Below, one piece after another: positions 4,077 to 18,437 of a stretch of 48,683 nucleotides of DNA. Each line of letters opens with the position of its first letter. Positions within the stretch are counted from its first letter, which is position 1. The translations under genes were made by a program, and so were the position numbers. The notes below the pieces were generated by a model. The model saw only the letters and a list, made by a program, of their open reading frames with translations, was not told the origin of the DNA and ran no database searches. Location: the NCBI GenBank assembly GCA_020438135.1, contig JAGQVF010000096.1:1-48683 (forward strand), read 5' to 3'. The stretch is from Bacteroidales bacterium. Lineage in GTDB: Bacteria > Bacteroidota > Bacteroidia > Bacteroidales > JAADJA01.

Positions 4077-4085
4077 AAAAAAGTG

Positions 4086-4170
4086 CGGAGAGAGAGGGAT
4101 TCGAACCCCCGGAGGTTTGACCCTCAACGGTTTTCAAGACCGCCGCAATCGACCACTCTGCCATCTCTCC
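4086..4170 (-). tRNA. tRNA-Ser (anticodon UGA)
   Basis: This is an 85-nt class II tRNA with the long variable arm of serine tRNAs. The acceptor stem pairs GGAGAGA (4170 down to 4164) with TCTCTCC (4093 down to 4087), and G is the discriminator base at 4086. The T-arm contains GGTTCGAATCC. The anticodon TGA is complementary to 4134-4136, in the loop C-T-T-G-A-A-A, with purines after the anticodon. It would read UCN serine codons, chiefly UCA. CCA is not encoded. It has its own promoter and terminator and is transcribed against the neighbouring genes. Confidence 0.96.
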
Positions 4171-4310: not shown

Positions 4311-4318
4311 TACTTTTG
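4311..4318 (+). promoter_or_regulatory. -7 element (TACTTTTG) for the HlyD-VTC-DUF4956 unit
   Basis: TACTTTTG matches TAnnTTTG exactly and lies 27 bases before the ATG at 4346. No TTTG is seen at the expected -33 distance, so only half the promoter is recognised. The element covers the TTG that would otherwise give a longer reading frame from 4316, which is one reason to prefer the ATG. Confidence 0.45.
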
Positions 4319-4345: not shown

Positions 4346-5404
4346 ATGAGGTTAAGCAGAAGGAATATCCTGTTAATTTTTCTGGTCGTATGTCTCTTGA
4401 TGGTTTTCGTACCCATCAGGATACCTTATAGTTTTGAATCTGTTGCCAAAATTTTGCCAGTGAAAGAGTGGCACTTGAAACGGGGACAGGATGATAGTTT
4501 CATTAGTGAGCTGAACGACAATAGCACCAACGTGGTCAGTCATATGAAGAACTATAAATTCGAGAGAGGAGATATTGCAGAGGTGTATCTGGATGAAGCG
4601 CTTGATACCGGAAAATATATCAAAAAGGGTGATACAATTGCCTTTATACATTCATATTATATTGAAAATGAAATTACCCGGCTGAAAAATCTGAAGAAGG
4701 TTGAAGAAAACGCGCTGCGAATGAATTTAAGCGGCGAAAAGCAGGAACTGATCGAACAGGCGGAAAACAAATATGCCTTCGCCCAACAACAACTCGACCT
4801 TGAAAGAAAAAAGTATGATCGTGAAAAGCAGTTGTTCAGGGATAGCATCATTTCGACTGCAGATTTTGAGATCACTGAAAATACATATCGCCTGGCTAAA
4901 ATTAATGTTGATATTGCCCACAGCGAATTAAAGTCATTGCGAACCGGCGTGAAGCCTGAACAAATCGATTATATTAAACAACAGATAGAAAGCTATAGCA
5001 ATGAAATTGGCAAGCTTGAAAATCAAGTGGAACAATACTACATAACACCTCCAATAAGTGGTGTTCTGTCATTTAATAAAGTGGTTGACGGGGTGGTATC
5101 AGTGAGTGACACAACCAAATATGTATTGCAAATTCCTGTTCAGGTTACTAATTTGAAGTTTATACAATCCATCTCAGCGATCAGATTTTCACTACCCGGC
5201 TACGATGAAAGGGTGAGCGCCTCTTTGCTGGATATTGAAGAAAATGTAAATGTAATTCCCGGTGAGCAAATGGTAATTGCGCGTGCATTGATTTCAGGAG
5301 GTAAATACCGTATCTATCCCGGAATGATGGTGCAATGCAAAGTTATTTGCGATAAAATTACAATACTTGAATACCTGAAAAGGGGAATACAGTTGAACAT
5401 CTGA
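4346..5404 (+). CDS. HlyD-like membrane fusion/adaptor protein
   Basis: This 352-residue inner-membrane-anchored protein resembles HlyD/EmrA periplasmic adaptors. Seen in sequence: a short basic N-terminus and one transmembrane helix (about 7-24); a first lipoyl-like half motif with R-G-D-I-A-E-V and K-K-G-D-T-I-A (about 75-100); a long charged helical hairpin predicted as coiled coil (about 105-225); then the returning lipoyl half with P-P-I-S-G-V-L, and a beta-rich C-terminus. No ABC transporter, MFS pump or outer-membrane channel accompanies it. The next two genes encode a VTC-domain protein (two bases downstream) and a DUF4956 membrane protein. It is therefore more likely part of that module than of a classical efflux pump, but this is inference. 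The ATG at 4346 is preferred over a TTG at 4316, which lies inside the promoter element. Confidence 0.75.
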   Translation: MRLSRRNILLIFLVVCLLMVFVPIRIPYSFESVAKILPVKEWHLKRGQDDSFISELNDNSTNVVSHMKNYKFERGDIAEVYLDEALDTGKYIKKGDTIAFIHSYYIENEITRLKNLKKVEENALRMNLSGEKQELIEQAENKYAFAQQQLDLERKKYDREKQLFRDSIISTADFEITENTYRLAKINVDIAHSELKSLRTGVKPEQIDYIKQQIESYSNEIGKLENQVEQYYITPPISGVLSFNKVVDGVVSVSDTTKYVLQIPVQVTNLKFIQSISAIRFSLPGYDERVSASLLDIEENVNVIPGEQMVIARALISGGKYRIYPGMMVQCKVICDKITILEYLKRGIQLNI

Positions 5405-5406
5405 CA

Positions 5407-6171
5407 ATGCGGTTTGAATTTAAATATATAGTTGCTGAAAGATACCTGGATGAATTACGAAATTCGGTAAGACCGTTCGTAGAAGTTGATCCTTTTGCCG
5501 ATGCAGAAGAGAAAAACGAATACACAGTCAGATCAATTTACTTTGATACACCCAATTTCGACTATTATTATGAAAAAATTGATGGCATCAAAAACCGCAA
5601 AAAGCTTAGGATACGTGGCTACGACGATGTTGAAAAAAACAACACGGTGTTTCTCGAAATAAAACGTAAATACGATGTACCCATAAAGAAGTACCGTGCT
5701 CCCGTTAATTTTGAAGATGCGCAGGATATTTTTAAAAAAAGTGCTATCAACGGTCATGTACTCAATCAATTACCCATCATTGAGGGCTACGCTAATTCAA
5801 AGCGATTTTTTTTCCAAATGTATAGCCGGAACCTGAGACCAACGGTATTGGTAGTTTATGATCGTGAGGCATATTACAGTAAATTCGATCGCACTGTCCG
5901 GCTGACTTTTGATAAACGACTACGTGGGGAGGCTTATCCTGAACTTAAAAACCTGTTTAATGAAAGAAATCTCAGGTCAGCCCTGCATGGCAGATTTATT
6001 CTCGAAGTAAAATTTAATAATCATTTTCCCTCATGGCTTCATCCTGTTATTTCAAGGTTTAATTTGAAAAGACAATCGGCCTCTAAATATGTAATAACAA
6101 TGGATGCATGCAATGTGATCGGAAAACCGGGTAGATCAACTTTGTATACCCGCGCAAAGTGGTACGTTTAA
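5407..6171 (+). CDS. VTC-domain (CYTH/triphosphate tunnel) protein, polyphosphate polymerase-like
   Basis: This 254-residue protein matches the VTC domain, the catalytic fold of the yeast polyphosphate polymerase Vtc4 and a member of the triphosphate-tunnel superfamily. The tunnel residues can be followed strand by strand: R-F-E-F-K-Y at the N-terminus, S-I-Y-F-D-T near residue 47, K-L-R-I-R-G near residue 64, the charged E-I-K-R-K strand near residue 82, Y-D-R-E-A near residue 155, V-R-L-T-F-D near residue 164, and L-E-V-K-F near residue 198. No signal peptide or membrane segment is seen, so the active site is probably cytoplasmic. In other bacteria this domain is commonly linked to DUF4956 genes, as here. 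The product (polyphosphate or another phosphate polymer) is not established. Confidence 0.85.
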   Translation: MRFEFKYIVAERYLDELRNSVRPFVEVDPFADAEEKNEYTVRSIYFDTPNFDYYYEKIDGIKNRKKLRIRGYDDVEKNNTVFLEIKRKYDVPIKKYRAPVNFEDAQDIFKKSAINGHVLNQLPIIEGYANSKRFFFQMYSRNLRPTVLVVYDREAYYSKFDRTVRLTFDKRLRGEAYPELKNLFNERNLRSALHGRFILEVKFNNHFPSWLHPVISRFNLKRQSASKYVITMDACNVIGKPGRSTLYTRAKWYV

Positions 6172-6184
6172 ATGAAAAAGAATT

Positions 6185-6868
6185 ATGTTTGAACAATTTC
6201 AAGATCTAGACCTCTTCCCGGTAAATGTATTCGATGTTGTAAGCAATTTACTTGTTGCACTGGTGTGCGGTATTATCATTGCCCTGGTGTACAGGTTTAT
6301 ATATAAAGGTCCGAGTTATTCGTCCACATATGTAAACTCATTGGTGTTGTTAACTTTGATCACTTCTGTTGTAATTCTCGTAATCGGGAATAATTTGGCA
6401 AGGGCATTTGGCCTTGTAGGAGCCATGTCTATAATTCGTTTCAGGACTGCAGTGCGGGATGTACAGGATATTGTTTTTATATTTTTTGCATTATCCATTG
6501 GTATGGCCTCAGGTGTAGGTTTGCACGTAATCGCTCTGGCAAGTACCATCATTATCAGTCTCATCGCTATTGTTTTGGTAACTTTCAACTTTGGATCGCC
6601 CCGACGTCAGGAATTTCTTTTGCAGGTATCATATGACTCCTCGGGAATTACTGAGGACCACATCGTGCAGATCATCAGGCGATATTCAGGAAAATACAAA
6701 CTTGTTAACCTCAAAAATCTTGGTGGAGATAATGTGGAGGCTTTTTACCACGTGGGCTATAAAACCAAAAAAAACAGTGGTGAATTACTCAGGGAACTCC
6801 GGTCAATTACCGAAGTGCTGAATGTAAACCTGTTTTTTGATGACGACGATTCCGATCACATTGCCTGA
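6185..6868 (+). CDS. DUF4956 family membrane protein
   Basis: This 227-residue protein has several hydrophobic helices in its first 145 residues and a soluble C-terminal domain. The helix-loop segment G-A-M-S-I-I-R-F-R-T-A-V-R-D (about residue 79-92) is the hallmark of DUF4956. It starts 13 bases after the VTC gene and completes the three-gene module. The biochemical role of the family is unknown. Because it repeatedly accompanies VTC-domain proteins, a channel or membrane anchor for the polymer-forming enzyme is a reasonable guess. The C-terminal half ends in an acidic D-D-D-D-S-D stretch. Confidence 0.85.
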   Translation: MFEQFQDLDLFPVNVFDVVSNLLVALVCGIIIALVYRFIYKGPSYSSTYVNSLVLLTLITSVVILVIGNNLARAFGLVGAMSIIRFRTAVRDVQDIVFIFFALSIGMASGVGLHVIALASTIIISLIAIVLVTFNFGSPRRQEFLLQVSYDSSGITEDHIVQIIRRYSGKYKLVNLKNLGGDNVEAFYHVGYKTKKNSGELLRELRSITEVLNVNLFFDDDDSDHIA

Positions 6869-7089: not shown

Positions 7090-7827
7090 ATGAAAGCAAT
7101 GATTTTTGCTGCCGGACTTGGCACCCGCCTGCGTCCGCTCACTGATCAAATACCGAAAGCACTGGTTCCTGTTAACGGAATGCCACTTCTGGAAATTCAA
7201 ATCCGTAAACTGAAAAGCATTGGTATTAATGAAATCATAGTCAATGTTCACCACATGGCCGGCGAAATAAAAAAATTCCTGAAATCTAAAGATCATTTCG
7301 GAATCCGTATCGAAGTTTCTGACGAATCCGACCAATTGCTTGATACAGGTGGTGGAATAGCGAATGCATCATGGTTTTTTAAAGCGGATGAAAACTTCCT
7401 TGTGCACAATGTAGATATTCTTACAAATATCAACCTGGGATCGCTAGTCCAAAAACATAAAGATACAGGGGCCCTCGCCACACTTGCAGTGCGTCTACGG
7501 AAGTCAAGCCGGTATTTACTGTTCGATTCAAAAAACCGGCTTACCGGTTGGAAAAATGAAAAAACCGGTGAACTGATCCGTTGCGGCACTGCAACAATAG
7601 AGAAAACTTTGGCATTTAGTGGGATTCACGTAATAAATGCCCGTATTTTTAACCTCATGCAAAATGCAGGTAAATTCTCAATCATTAAAACGTATCTGTC
7701 GCTTGCTCCTGCAAACCTTATCTACGGATTGGAAGATAGTGGTTCGTATTGGTTTGATGTAGGCACTCTGCAAAAACTGGCTGAAGCCGAAGCTTTTATC
7801 AGGCAAAAAAATATTGAAATTGTATAA
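7090..7827 (+). CDS. Sugar-1-phosphate nucleotidyltransferase, MurU-like
   Basis: This 245-residue protein has the NTP-transferase (Rossmann-like) fold that joins a sugar 1-phosphate to a nucleoside triphosphate, releasing pyrophosphate. The signature G-L-G-T-R-L-R-P-L-T lies at residues 9-18, followed by the conserved P-K-A-L lysine, a metal-binding aspartate in H-N-V-D-I, and a W-F-D-V-G-T segment near the end. The short length without a left-handed beta-helix resembles MurU (N-acetylmuramate-1-phosphate uridylyltransferase, cell-wall recycling) and related mannose-1-phosphate guanylyltransferases. The kinase AmgK that usually accompanies MurU is not in the window, so the substrate is uncertain. 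The next ATG follows one base after its stop. Confidence 0.85.
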   Translation: MKAMIFAAGLGTRLRPLTDQIPKALVPVNGMPLLEIQIRKLKSIGINEIIVNVHHMAGEIKKFLKSKDHFGIRIEVSDESDQLLDTGGGIANASWFFKADENFLVHNVDILTNINLGSLVQKHKDTGALATLAVRLRKSSRYLLFDSKNRLTGWKNEKTGELIRCGTATIEKTLAFSGIHVINARIFNLMQNAGKFSIIKTYLSLAPANLIYGLEDSGSYWFDVGTLQKLAEAEAFIRQKNIEIV

Positions 7828-7828
7828 C

Positions 7829-10639
7829 ATGGAGACTTTTCTGGAAAAAACCGCACAATATGTTGTAGCAAAATATGGCGATAATTTACGGAATCTCTGC
7901 ATCGTGCTACCAAACAGGAGGGCCTCATTATTCCTGAAAAAAGCCTTATCAAAAAATATTGCAAAACCTGTCTGGTCTCCTGAAATTCTTGCTGTGGAGG
8001 ATTTCGTTTACAAAAGTACCGGATTACTTCCGGCAGATAACATGTTCCTTCTTTTCGATCTGTATGAAATATACAGAGATAGCACAAAAGAAGCAATAGC
8101 TGATTTTGATGAATTTATTGGCTGGGGCGAGGTGGTTTTAAACGACTTTAATGATGTTGACCTGTACCTGGCGGATACACGGCAGCTTTTTACCTATCTG
8201 AGTGATGTAAAGGCAATTGGTTTATGGAACCCGGATGGTAAACCCCTCACCCCGTTTCAGCAAAATTACCTTCGTTTTTTTAATTCCCTTGAGGGGTTGT
8301 ACTCCAATCTCAAAGAACGCCTTTTGAATAGCGGACAGGCGTATCAGGGGCTGGCATACAGGGAATTGGTGCATGCGCTTGAAAACAATCCTCTTTTGGT
8401 ACCTTATCAACAAGTGATATTTGCAGGATTTAATGCTTTAACGCCGGCCGAATCTGCTATTTTTTCTTTGTTGGAGAAGGCAGGGAAAGCTGATGTTTTA
8501 TGGGATGCGGATCGTTATTATATCGACCAACCCGAGCAGGAAGCCGGATTTTTTCTGCGGAATGTATTTAAAACCAACGAAGAGAATCGCCCGAACTGGC
8601 TTTTTGATAATTTTAGATCAGCATCAAAATCGATCAGGATCATTGGTGTTCCTCAAAAAGTTGGACAAGTTAAAACAGCCGGTAACATCATAAAAAATCT
8701 TATTTCTGAAGGTGAAAAACAGGACTCCCTGGCGGTGATCTTGAATGATGAAACCCTGGTTTTCCCTCTGCTGAATTCGATACCCAAAGAGCTGGAGCGT
8801 TTTAACGTTACGATGGGCCTGCCGCTGAAGGAAACATCTCTCTACAAATTGCTCGATTCTGTAATATCCCTGCAGGAAAATGCTGATCGTTTTGCCCGGA
8901 CAGGCTACCGCAAACTCAGTTTTTATCATGCTGATTTAATCCGGGTTTTAACGCATCCGTTTATGCATTTTATTGTTCCGTCGGCGGATGCGTTAGTGGT
9001 TAAAGAGCAAATACAGCTTTCGAACAGAGCTTTCCTGACCGGTCTGGAAGTTAAAAACCTGATTGCAGAAAATACTGAGAATGTACCTGAGATATTGATA
9101 CGCCTGACTGATCCATGGGAAAATAATATCCAGCAGGCAGTGCAGTTTATCTCGGCCTTGCTTCACACATTAACTGAAAGAATGCTTGCTTCTGAGAAAA
9201 AGCATCAATCGGGTATGGAGCTTGAATATATTTTTCATTTTACTAAGGTTGTTAACAAGCTGGAAGAGATCATCAAAGCGGTTGATTTCGTTCAGAACCT
9301 CGGTACATTCAGATACTTGTTTAACAACCTGGTGAAAGGCATCCGCATTCCGTTTTATGGCGAACCACTGCAAGGTGCGCAGGTGATGGGAATGCTTGAA
9401 AGCAGGGTGCTTGATTTTGAGAATATAATTATGCTTTCAGTGAATGAAGATTTTATCCCGGCCGGAAAATCTGACAATTCATTTATTCCATTTGAAGTTC
9501 GCAGAGTTTTTAAACTACCCACCATCCGCGAAAGGAATGCGGTTTATGCATATCACTTTTATCGCCTGCTTCAGCGTTCGTCAAATGTGTATTTGCTTTA
9601 TAACACTGAAGCCGGAAATTTGGGAGGGGGGGAGCGTAGCCGTTTCCTTTCACAGATATTGCATGAAATGAGGGCTTTTAGTTCGAATGTTGAGATCACT
9701 GAAGACATTCTTGAAATGAATATTCCTGAAGTCAGCGAGGAACCCGATATCAATATCCACAAGTCAGTTGATATCATGCAACGACTTGATGAATTGGCAG
9801 TTTCAGGATTTTCAGCTTCATCACTCAATGTTTACAGGAATTGCAGCCTGCAGTTTTATTTTAATCATATTTTGGGGCTTGGAGAGGCTGACCAGGTAGA
9901 GGAAACCATCGAAAATGCTACATTAGGAAAGGTGATTCACCATGTATTGCAATTGCTGTATGAGCCTTTGGAGAACAAAAAGCTAACAGCCGGCGAACTA
10001 GAAGTTATGAAGAAAAGAGTTCCTGCTTTGGTTGAAAAGTCATTTCAGGAAAATTATGCAGGTGGAGAAGTTCATTTCGGAAAAAATTTACTGATTGTTA
10101 AGGTGGCAGAATCCTACCTGTTTCGATTTCTCGACAACGAACAACAACTAGTTTCTGACAGTGAGGTAGTGATCAAAAAAATGGAACAAAGGCTCGTTTC
10201 GCAGGTTCAGTTAAAATCCGGGAAAATCATAAAAATCAAGGGGTTCATCGATCGGTTTGATGTTACTGATGGAATCACAAGGATCATCGACTATAAAACG
10301 GGAAAAGTTGAACAGAAAGAACTTAACTTAAAACAATGGGATGACCTTCAGAGTGCTGATGGTTTTGATAAGGCCTTTCAGTTATTGTTTTATTCCCTGC
10401 TATACCAGAAGACGGAAAAGGTTTCATACATCGATTTTCAGGCGGGAATTTACTCGTTTCGAAACCTGAAGGAAGGATTACTGGCAATCCGGTTTCCGGT
10501 GAATGACTGGCCCGAGAGTTTCGAAAGTTACCTGGTTGAACTGCTAGGTGAGATCTATGATCCCGTTAAGCAGTTTACACAAACAGTTGATAAGGACCGA
10601 TGTCAGTATTGTACCTTTAAAAGTGTTTGCAACCGTTAA
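7829..10639 (+). CDS. AddB-like PD-(D/E)XK nuclease with iron-sulfur motif
   Basis: This 936-residue protein resembles AddB, the partner of the AddA helicase-nuclease in recombinational repair. The N-terminal helicase-like region has L-P-N-R-R-A-S where an active helicase would have a Walker A loop, so the motor is probably inactive. The C-terminal nuclease carries G-K-V-I-H-H and the catalytic D-Y-K-T-G motif. Four cysteines, one in Y-R-N-C-S near residue 674 and three in C-Q-Y-C-T-F-K-S-V-C at the end, match the AddB 4Fe-4S arrangement that flanks the nuclease. The UvrD/AddA-like partner is not in this window. The longer frame from a TTG at 7814 overlaps the upstream gene; the ATG at 7829 is preferred. 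Its stop abuts that of the convergent LysM gene with no base between. Confidence 0.85.
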   Translation: METFLEKTAQYVVAKYGDNLRNLCIVLPNRRASLFLKKALSKNIAKPVWSPEILAVEDFVYKSTGLLPADNMFLLFDLYEIYRDSTKEAIADFDEFIGWGEVVLNDFNDVDLYLADTRQLFTYLSDVKAIGLWNPDGKPLTPFQQNYLRFFNSLEGLYSNLKERLLNSGQAYQGLAYRELVHALENNPLLVPYQQVIFAGFNALTPAESAIFSLLEKAGKADVLWDADRYYIDQPEQEAGFFLRNVFKTNEENRPNWLFDNFRSASKSIRIIGVPQKVGQVKTAGNIIKNLISEGEKQDSLAVILNDETLVFPLLNSIPKELERFNVTMGLPLKETSLYKLLDSVISLQENADRFARTGYRKLSFYHADLIRVLTHPFMHFIVPSADALVVKEQIQLSNRAFLTGLEVKNLIAENTENVPEILIRLTDPWENNIQQAVQFISALLHTLTERMLASEKKHQSGMELEYIFHFTKVVNKLEEIIKAVDFVQNLGTFRYLFNNLVKGIRIPFYGEPLQGAQVMGMLESRVLDFENIIMLSVNEDFIPAGKSDNSFIPFEVRRVFKLPTIRERNAVYAYHFYRLLQRSSNVYLLYNTEAGNLGGGERSRFLSQILHEMRAFSSNVEITEDILEMNIPEVSEEPDINIHKSVDIMQRLDELAVSGFSASSLNVYRNCSLQFYFNHILGLGEADQVEETIENATLGKVIHHVLQLLYEPLENKKLTAGELEVMKKRVPALVEKSFQENYAGGEVHFGKNLLIVKVAESYLFRFLDNEQQLVSDSEVVIKKMEQRLVSQVQLKSGKIIKIKGFIDRFDVTDGITRIIDYKTGKVEQKELNLKQWDDLQSADGFDKAFQLLFYSLLYQKTEKVSYIDFQAGIYSFRNLKEGLLAIRFPVNDWPESFESYLVELLGEIYDPVKQFTQTVDKDRCQYCTFKSVCNR

Positions 10640-17633: not shown

Positions 17634-18437
17634 ATGAATGACTTAAATTCAGAAAACGATAAAAAAATCGATGACAAGTTTTATGAAAAAGAACTTGTAA
17701 GACTGCAGATCGAACTGGTTAAACTCCAGGAATGGATTCGTGCCCGCGGGCTAAAAGTGGTTGTAATATTTGAAGGGCGGGATGCAGCCGGCAAAGGAGG
17801 AACCATTAAACGGATAACTGAAAAACTCAATCCTCGGATATGCCGGATTGTAGCACTTGCCAAGCCAACAGAAAGAGAACAAACCCAGTGGTATTTCCAA
17901 CGTTATGTCGCTCATTTGCCGGCTGCCGGTGAAATGGTGCTGTTCGATCGTAGTTGGTACAACAGGGCAGTGGTTGAACGGGTTATGGATTTTTGTTCGG
18001 ATGAGGAATACTGGGAGTTTCTCCGGTCATGCCCCAACTTCGAAAGAATGCTGATCAGATCAGGAATAATATTAGTTAAGTATTGGTTTTCGGTGAGTGA
18101 TATGGAACAGGAAAAACGATTTCGCTCAAGACTTAACAATCCGGCCAAACGATGGAAATTCAGTGAAGTTGATCTTAAATCATATACGAAATGGGATGAT
18201 TACTCCAAAGCCAAAGATGAAATGTTTGGCTATACCGACACAAAACAGAGCCCGTGGTACGTGGTGAATGCAGATGATAAAAAACGGGCAAGACTCAATT
18301 GTATTTCTCATTTACTTTCGATGGTGCCGTATGATTACATTCCGCCTGAAGAGATCGATTTGCCTGAAAGACAGAATAAAACAGGATATGTGAGAACTCC
18401 TATTTCCGAGCAAACATTTGTTCCTGAGATTTACTAA
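17634..18437 (+). CDS. Polyphosphate kinase 2 family protein
   Basis: PPK2 transfers phosphate between polyphosphate and nucleotides, usually to make ATP or GTP from polyphosphate in the cytoplasm. This is a one-domain, 267-residue protein. Walker A is G-R-D-A-A-G-K-G-G (about residues 46-54), Walker B is F-D-R-S-W-Y-N-R-A (about 104-112), and the lid region is arginine-rich. The size and the A-G-K-G-G-T-I sequence resemble class I PPK2 enzymes, which mostly phosphorylate NDPs. It is 16 bases after galK. No ppk1 is in the window, but a VTC-domain enzyme lies about 11 kb upstream, so the cell may have more than one route into polyphosphate. Confidence 0.93.
   Translation: MNDLNSENDKKIDDKFYEKELVRLQIELVKLQEWIRARGLKVVVIFEGRDAAGKGGTIKRITEKLNPRICRIVALAKPTEREQTQWYFQRYVAHLPAAGEMVLFDRSWYNRAVVERVMDFCSDEEYWEFLRSCPNFERMLIRSGIILVKYWFSVSDMEQEKRFRSRLNNPAKRWKFSEVDLKSYTKWDDYSKAKDEMFGYTDTKQSPWYVVNADDKKRARLNCISHLLSMVPYDYIPPEEIDLPERQNKTGYVRTPISEQTFVPEIY

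Follow-up and report, generated by a model that had tools for sequence, protein, structure and literature searches.

A conserved gene trio of Bacteroidota, HlyD-VTC-DUF4956, as a candidate envelope-spanning machine for polyphosphate synthesis and export

Three adjacent genes on one strand of a contig from a Bacteroidales bacterium (JAGQVF010000096.1 of assembly GCA_020438135.1, analysed from position 1 to 48,683; this whole stretch of 48,683 nucleotides is referred to as the window) encode a periplasmic adaptor of the HlyD type, an enzyme with a VTC domain and a membrane protein of the DUF4956 family (Table 1). A first-pass annotation of this DNA had described the genes as tightly spaced, which their coordinates bear out, the intergenic gaps being 2 and 13 bases. 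Each of the three protein families is already known, and bacterial polyphosphate is usually explained by cytosolic PPK1 and PPK2. The system was examined by sequence comparison and monomer structure models alone, and the arrangement raises the prospect of a single machine which would make polyphosphate and export it across the cell envelope.

Table 1. Features at and around the trio in the window (positions in nucleotides)
Feature	Position	Strand	Size	Basis or remark
HlyD/MFP-type periplasmic adaptor	4346..5404	+	352 aa	NCBIfam, PDB profile matches, AlphaFold, Foldseek
VTC-domain triphosphate-tunnel enzyme, predicted polyphosphate polymerase	5407..6171	+	254 aa	PF09359, profile to yeast Vtc4
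DUF4956 inner-membrane protein	6185..6868	+	227 aa	PF16316, AlphaFold, Foldseek, hhalign
TAnnTTTG box (TACTTTTG), a probable Bacteroidota -7 promoter element	4311..4318	+		read from sequence
tRNA-Ser	4085-4170	-		flanks the trio on the HlyD side
Nucleotidyltransferase and PDDEXK nuclease genes	7090-10639			3' of the trio
PPK2 gene	17634-18437			TIGR03707, E 1e-114

The linkage of the three genes is far above chance: once duplicates are removed, 103 distinct loci carry HlyD, VTC and DUF4956 genes in this same order, with median gaps of 3 and 11 nucleotides. Of 60 relatives sampled, 36 encode VTC, and across the phylum of the window 62 of 392 genomes do so. Eighty neighbourhoods were fetched, which gave 79 VTC loci with the window included; the order is HlyD-VTC-DUF4956 in 41 of these and VTC-DUF4956-HlyD in 13, two further loci have HlyD-VTC at a contig end or next to an unrecognised gene, and 11 instead carry a DUF2490 gene, which we label an alternative outer-membrane partner. 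The HlyD-first trio extends over at least 14 families of the phylum, counted by family codes. Among GTDB contigs it occurs at 72 of 80 DUF4956 loci, several of the remainder being cut by contig ends, and the titles of the trio contigs name Bacteroidales, Saprospiraceae, Ignavibacteriales, Melioribacteraceae, Calditrichia, Neomarinimicrobiota, Zixiibacteriota and Kryptonia; cultured organisms that possess it are Belliella buryatensis, Alkaliflexus imshenetskii, Alkalitalea saponilacus and Natronoflexus pectinivorans. Conservation of HlyD beside VTC and DUF4956, the point which the first-pass annotation had singled out for checking, is upheld by both surveys. A good many of the carriers seem to be organisms of soda lakes or alkaliphiles (CSSed and T3Sed isolates, Alkaliflexus, Alkalitalea and Natronoflexus, among loci L146-L225).

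The association is equally tight when followed from the adaptor. Run against the 392 genomes, the HlyD profile has 31 matches that score at least 182 bits, the next one reaching only 124 bits, and DUF4956 adjoins all 31 members of this subfamily and VTC 30 of them; the single member not beside VTC (genome G225) has the order HlyD-DUF4956-OEP. Across loci, VTC and DUF4956 are the only constant neighbours of HlyD, and no ABC, RND or MFS transporter is constant in the trio operons of the neighbourhoods examined. The three gene trees agree in their pairwise distances, with correlations of 0.83 to which shared species ancestry contributes, and none of 999 permutations exceeded 0.14. We regard a functional link between the three genes as very nearly certain.

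The first protein of the trio has no Pfam HlyD match and is recognised by NCBIfam PRK03598 ("secretion protein HlyD", E 1e-14) as well as by EmrA, CzcB and RND_mfp, in all cases under the curated cut-offs, and on these grounds its sequence is that of a divergent HlyD subfamily. Against the PDB, the family profile matches MacA, AcrA and EmrA, and the AlphaFold model (pLDDT 85.5) retrieves MacA as the best Foldseek match (E 3e-13), with EmrA at E 8.5e-12. The model comprises an N-terminal membrane anchor (residues 5-21), a beta/lipoyl region, a long alpha-hairpin with a kink on each arm (104-165 up, 171-229 down) and a C-terminal beta domain. At the tip of the hairpin, in register with MacA, lies R159-x3-L163-x6-S170, which has the R-x3-L-x6-S spacing known for docking on TolC. 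These residues are kept in 42, 40 and 37 of 42 homologues, respectively, and in the wider trio set R159 and L or M163 are each found in 97 of 100 members, S170 being weaker at 74 of 100. The protein thus models as an adaptor of the MacA/EmrA type with a TolC-docking-like tip. One relative (G247, L082:5946-6994) has, next to VTC, an HlyD gene broken into two open frames.

The VTC protein scores 143.6 bits against PF09359 (E 9e-42; the cut-off is 23) and matches no other Pfam domain, neither an SPX domain nor a VTC membrane domain being found in its 254 residues. When a profile built from 64 VTC proteins is compared with yeast Vtc4, the two align along the tunnel (E 1e-22), and every aligned trio retains K6, K57, R64, K66, R68, R70, E84, K86, K95, R153, R165, E200, K202 and K227. 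The Vtc4 tunnel residues K200, R264, R266, K281, R361, E426 and SK(Y/F) all have aligned counterparts that are likewise kept throughout, and Vtc4 R253 aligns with K57 of the window protein, a basic residue in both, so that the tunnel described in the first-pass annotation is present at the level of individual positions. Combined mutation of R264, R266 and E426 inactivates the yeast enzyme (PMC9911596), and the counterparts of these three residues are among those retained in every aligned trio. Because the tunnel residues are intact, the protein is likely to be an active polyphosphate polymerase. It is not there to replace a missing polyphosphate maker, since PPK1 is also encoded in 41 of the 42 carrier genomes checked. 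A second VTC gene, next to CotH and with no DUF4956 recognised adjacent to it, occurs in one congener that also has a normal trio (L066:7932-8699, G003). An apparent VTC fusion of 778-787 aa (L117, G194) was dropped, since its upstream frame, which lies in GC-rich DNA, seems to be spurious and the VTC gene to start at an ATG of its own.

The third protein matches Pfam PF16316 (E 6e-16), and its AlphaFold model (pLDDT 81.7) has five transmembrane helices followed by a C-terminal ACT/ferredoxin-like domain. The distribution of charges predicts an N-out/C-in topology which would place this domain on the cytosolic side, as it would the TM3-TM4 loop with the invariant R85-F-R87. Several comparisons point to MgtC: Foldseek returns, among many other ferredoxin-like folds, the MgtC C-terminal domains 2lqj (E 8e-4) and 7qa5 (E about 1e-3); hhalign of DUF4956 against MgtC gives E 1e-5; and 25 of 67 DUF4956 members have weak Pfam MgtC matches (E<=0.01; best 2.6e-5). 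The window protein itself reaches 14.6 bits, under the gathering score of 31.4, and we describe DUF4956 as MgtC-like, yet not a member of the MgtC family. A phmmer search of DUF4956 against the PDB gave chance-like matches only, including one to FtsZ. For the NELoc-2 locus of C. perfringens, a pair of VTC proteins has been reported together with two "tubulin/FtsZ GTPases" (PMC11677781), and given this chance-level likeness the latter may be DUF4956 proteins. Short DUF4956 proteins of 185-186 aa also exist (L265:7998-8555, L266:7965-8522, L267:7962-8522), with no VTC or HlyD nearby; each lies beside an opposite-strand gene of about 625-631 aa, of which the one scanned, at L265, contains a PPDK_N ATP-binding domain.

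A link to the outer membrane is provided by relatives in which a TolC-type gene of the OEP family lies within the VTC operon. In L202 the order is HlyD-VTC-DUF4956-OEP, the genes overlapping or almost touching (OEP E 6e-39); in L077 it is CotH-HlyD-VTC-DUF4956-OEP (E 8e-27); and in L122 it is DUF4956-HlyD-OEP-VTC (E 4e-17). There are also cassettes without VTC, namely the HlyD-DUF4956-OEP set of G225 (L255; OEP E 1e-34) and ten loci of one family (L256-L264 and L272) with the order DUF4956-HlyD-TolC-like and no VTC detected. The TolC assignment of this group is weaker, resting on OEP matches in two of the ten members and on an hhalign E of 1e-6 to the OEP protein of L122, and a comparison of the same kind with the OEP protein of L255 found nothing. 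A similar set occurs at L268, and the TolC-like genes of L263 and L268 have no Pfam match. One OEP seed (L254) proved to be an HlyD protein and was disregarded. Taken jointly, the TolC-bearing VTC operons and the VTC-free cassettes point to DUF4956 as the protein that partners an adaptor/TolC conduit in the inner membrane, VTC being the cytosolic enzyme that usually accompanies it. In the ten-locus family, a DUF6580 membrane protein is kept directly upstream of DUF4956.

The adaptor had been proposed at first to stand in place of the more familiar CotH-type partner, a substitution that we reject because the two often co-occur. At 32 of the 79 VTC loci a CotH gene is no more than six genes away from VTC, and at 27 of the 80 DUF4956 loci one falls inside the displayed neighbourhood; of the loci that also have HlyD, about 30% or more have CotH at a distance of up to six genes from the VTC or DUF4956 anchor. 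The CotH proteins at the examined loci often carry secretion tails. In Gram-positive bacteria, Pel polysaccharide clusters contain DUF4956, VTC and CotH, with no adaptor listed (PMC7112168), and this composition in monoderms fits the view that HlyD is the component which a second membrane requires.

The explanation that we favour joins these observations in one envelope-spanning machine. Cytosolic VTC would take phosphate from ATP, and the growing polyphosphate chain would thread its tunnel and be handed to DUF4956, whose ACT-like domain would lie on the VTC side and whose invariant arginines would sit at the cytosolic mouth. From there the chain would enter the channel of the HlyD adaptor, docked on a TolC-type outer-membrane channel, and presumably reach the cell surface or the exterior. 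DUF4956 would thereby take the place of the usual transporter in an adaptor/TolC conduit which VTC feeds with polyphosphate. The yeast VTC complex, which couples synthesis to membrane passage via a basic channel, offers a precedent (PMC9911596). The idea of a polymer moved across the envelope, already present in the first-pass annotation, gains from the in-operon TolC genes of relatives, from the docking-like tip and from the HlyD-DUF4956-TolC cassettes. The co-conservation, the intact VTC active site, the adaptor fold with its tip and the TolC genes of relatives are shown here; polymerase activity, DUF4956 as the conduit and the direction and end point of export are inferred. Several points weigh against this explanation. 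Most trio operons, that of the window included, have no adjacent TolC gene, and the window genome, which encodes several OEP proteins, would have to supply the partner from elsewhere. The invariant arginines of DUF4956 lie at the membrane edge and do not line the putative pore, and we know of no MgtC protein that acts as a polymer channel. The open-access literature yielded no bacterial VTC-domain protein shown to make polyphosphate. Finally, since VTC-free DUF4956-HlyD-TolC cassettes exist (L255 and, with the weak assignment described above, L256-L264 and L272), the conduit may carry other cargo. With these points considered, we put the chances of the whole chain of steps at about even.

The cassettes lead directly to the alternative that survives best, which is unlikely in our estimate: HlyD, DUF4956 and TolC would form the core exporter of a different cargo, such as a saccharide, a peptide or another anionic polymer, and VTC would modify, energise or regulate this export without making the cargo itself. 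Besides L255, the ten TolC-like loci and the similar set at L268, the company of Pel polysaccharide genes kept by DUF4956, VTC and CotH in Gram-positives (PMC7112168) speaks for it, but the trio loci share neither a glycosyltransferase nor a peptide precursor nor a protease, and VTC is, after DUF4956, the most constant partner of the HlyD subfamily (30 of 31). Slightly less probable is a second alternative, in which polyphosphate is delivered to the periplasm or surface to serve secreted CotH kinases, or a phosphorylated matrix at the surface, as phosphate donor and is not itself a secreted end product. The frequency of CotH near VTC and DUF4956 loci is in keeping with this, given that the genome of the window, at about 4 Mb, has four CotH genes, from which we estimate that only 1-2% would be expected by chance; so are the secretion tails, the CotH-headed operon of L077 and the CotH-VTC-DUF4956 sets of Gram-positives (PMC7112168). 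It suffers from the fact that no CotH gene lies near the trio in the window, where all four are elsewhere in the genome, or at most other loci, and the use of polyphosphate by CotH is speculation. CotH kinases are known as ATP users.

MgtC regulates ATP synthase and phosphate uptake, and the resemblance of DUF4956 to MgtC, together with the cytosolic orientation predicted for its ACT-like domain, would suit an arrangement in which DUF4956 and HlyD do no more than hold VTC at the inner membrane or regulate it there, by an MgtC-like control of ATP or phosphate, and polyphosphate stays cytosolic. We find this improbable, as it leaves a full-length adaptor with a TolC-docking-like tip and the TolC-bearing operons with no role, and cytosolic polyphosphate is already made by PPK1 in almost all of the carriers checked. 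That the three genes are chance neighbours, or are held together by plain synteny within one lineage, is refuted and retains next to no credence, for although the genes around the trio are also syntenic within the genus, the trio persists in 14 families where every other neighbour differs, and in contigs named for other phyla, among them Neomarinimicrobiota, Calditrichota and Zixiibacteriota.

The surroundings of the trio are less constant than the trio itself. The TAnnTTTG box lies 35 bases 5' of the HlyD start, and of the 12 other congener trios displayed, 11 have it between -32 and -36; across all trios it is observed in 37 of 99, against 12.2 expected from shuffling. Because of this recurring box, HlyD is probably the first gene of a transcription unit whose start the box marks. 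After DUF4956 come the nucleotidyltransferase gene and the PDDEXK nuclease gene, both of which are kept there in most congeners and not outside the genus. A predicted SdiA-regulated/phytase-like beta-propeller protein (PF06977/PF13449) is encoded on the same strand one or two genes 3' of DUF4956 at seven loci (L077:4039-4926, L088:5489-6283, L105:8418-9191, L106:5519-6313, L108:5510-6277, L157:6520-7290 and L223:6611-7384) and constitutes a recurring accessory of possible relevance to phosphate. Elsewhere, the window genome has a single VTC, a single DUF4956 and one PPK1 gene. The PPK2 gene noted at first as lying 11 kb downstream and dedicated to the trio is real, but the dedication does not hold, as in five congeners the sequence fetched to each side of the trio, about 20 kb, contains neither PPK2 nor galactokinase. 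A review portrays PPK2 as chiefly a user of polyphosphate in vivo (PMC10657179).

Open-access text searches returned no description of the trio, of an HlyD-DUF4956 pairing or of a bacterial apparatus passing polyphosphate outwards, and VTC is treated as eukaryotic in a review (PMC10657179). A broader claim, which we advance tentatively and at somewhat less than even confidence, is that of a new secretion machine, present in Bacteroidota as well as in several further phyla, in which a template-free VTC polymerase and an MgtC-like DUF4956 conduit replace the ABC, RND or MFS pump of an adaptor-TolC assembly and secrete polyphosphate across two membranes, in some lineages providing phosphate for secreted CotH kinases. 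If this is true, the way in which bacteria could place polyphosphate on or outside the cell would become open to genetic study, DUF4956 would gain a role as inner-membrane partner of adaptor/TolC channels, the yeast VTC complex would have a two-membrane counterpart, and the VTC-DUF4956-CotH association of Gram-positives would become testable.

Compared with known systems, the trio shares with the eukaryotic VTC complex (Vtc1/Vtc3/Vtc4) the TTM/VTC catalytic fold and active-site residues, and the coupling of an enzyme predicted at the cytosolic face to a membrane protein in which basic residues are conserved; it differs in having neither SPX nor a Vtc1-type three-helix membrane domain, in its membrane partner, DUF4956, and in the adaptor (and TolC) added for a second membrane. 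With MacAB-TolC, EmrAB-TolC, AcrAB-TolC and type I secretion it has in common an adaptor of the MacA/EmrA fold, a TolC-docking-like tip and, in the operons of some relatives, TolC itself, whereas it has no constant ABC, RND or MFS operon partner, its inner-membrane protein is MgtC-like and its engine would be a polymerase. The MgtC/SapB family likewise has five membrane helices and a C-terminal ACT-like domain and shows weak profile similarity, but DUF4956 stays under the Pfam MgtC threshold and has its own conserved motif (GNNLARAFGLVGAMSIIRFRTA) and its own partner genes. PPK1 and PPK2 also belong to polyphosphate metabolism, yet their folds are unrelated to VTC, and PPK1 is co-present in the same genomes. 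The CotH-VTC-DUF4956 set of Gram-positive Pel clusters (PMC7112168) has the same VTC and DUF4956 pair, often with CotH, and differs in that an adaptor is not among its listed accessory genes.

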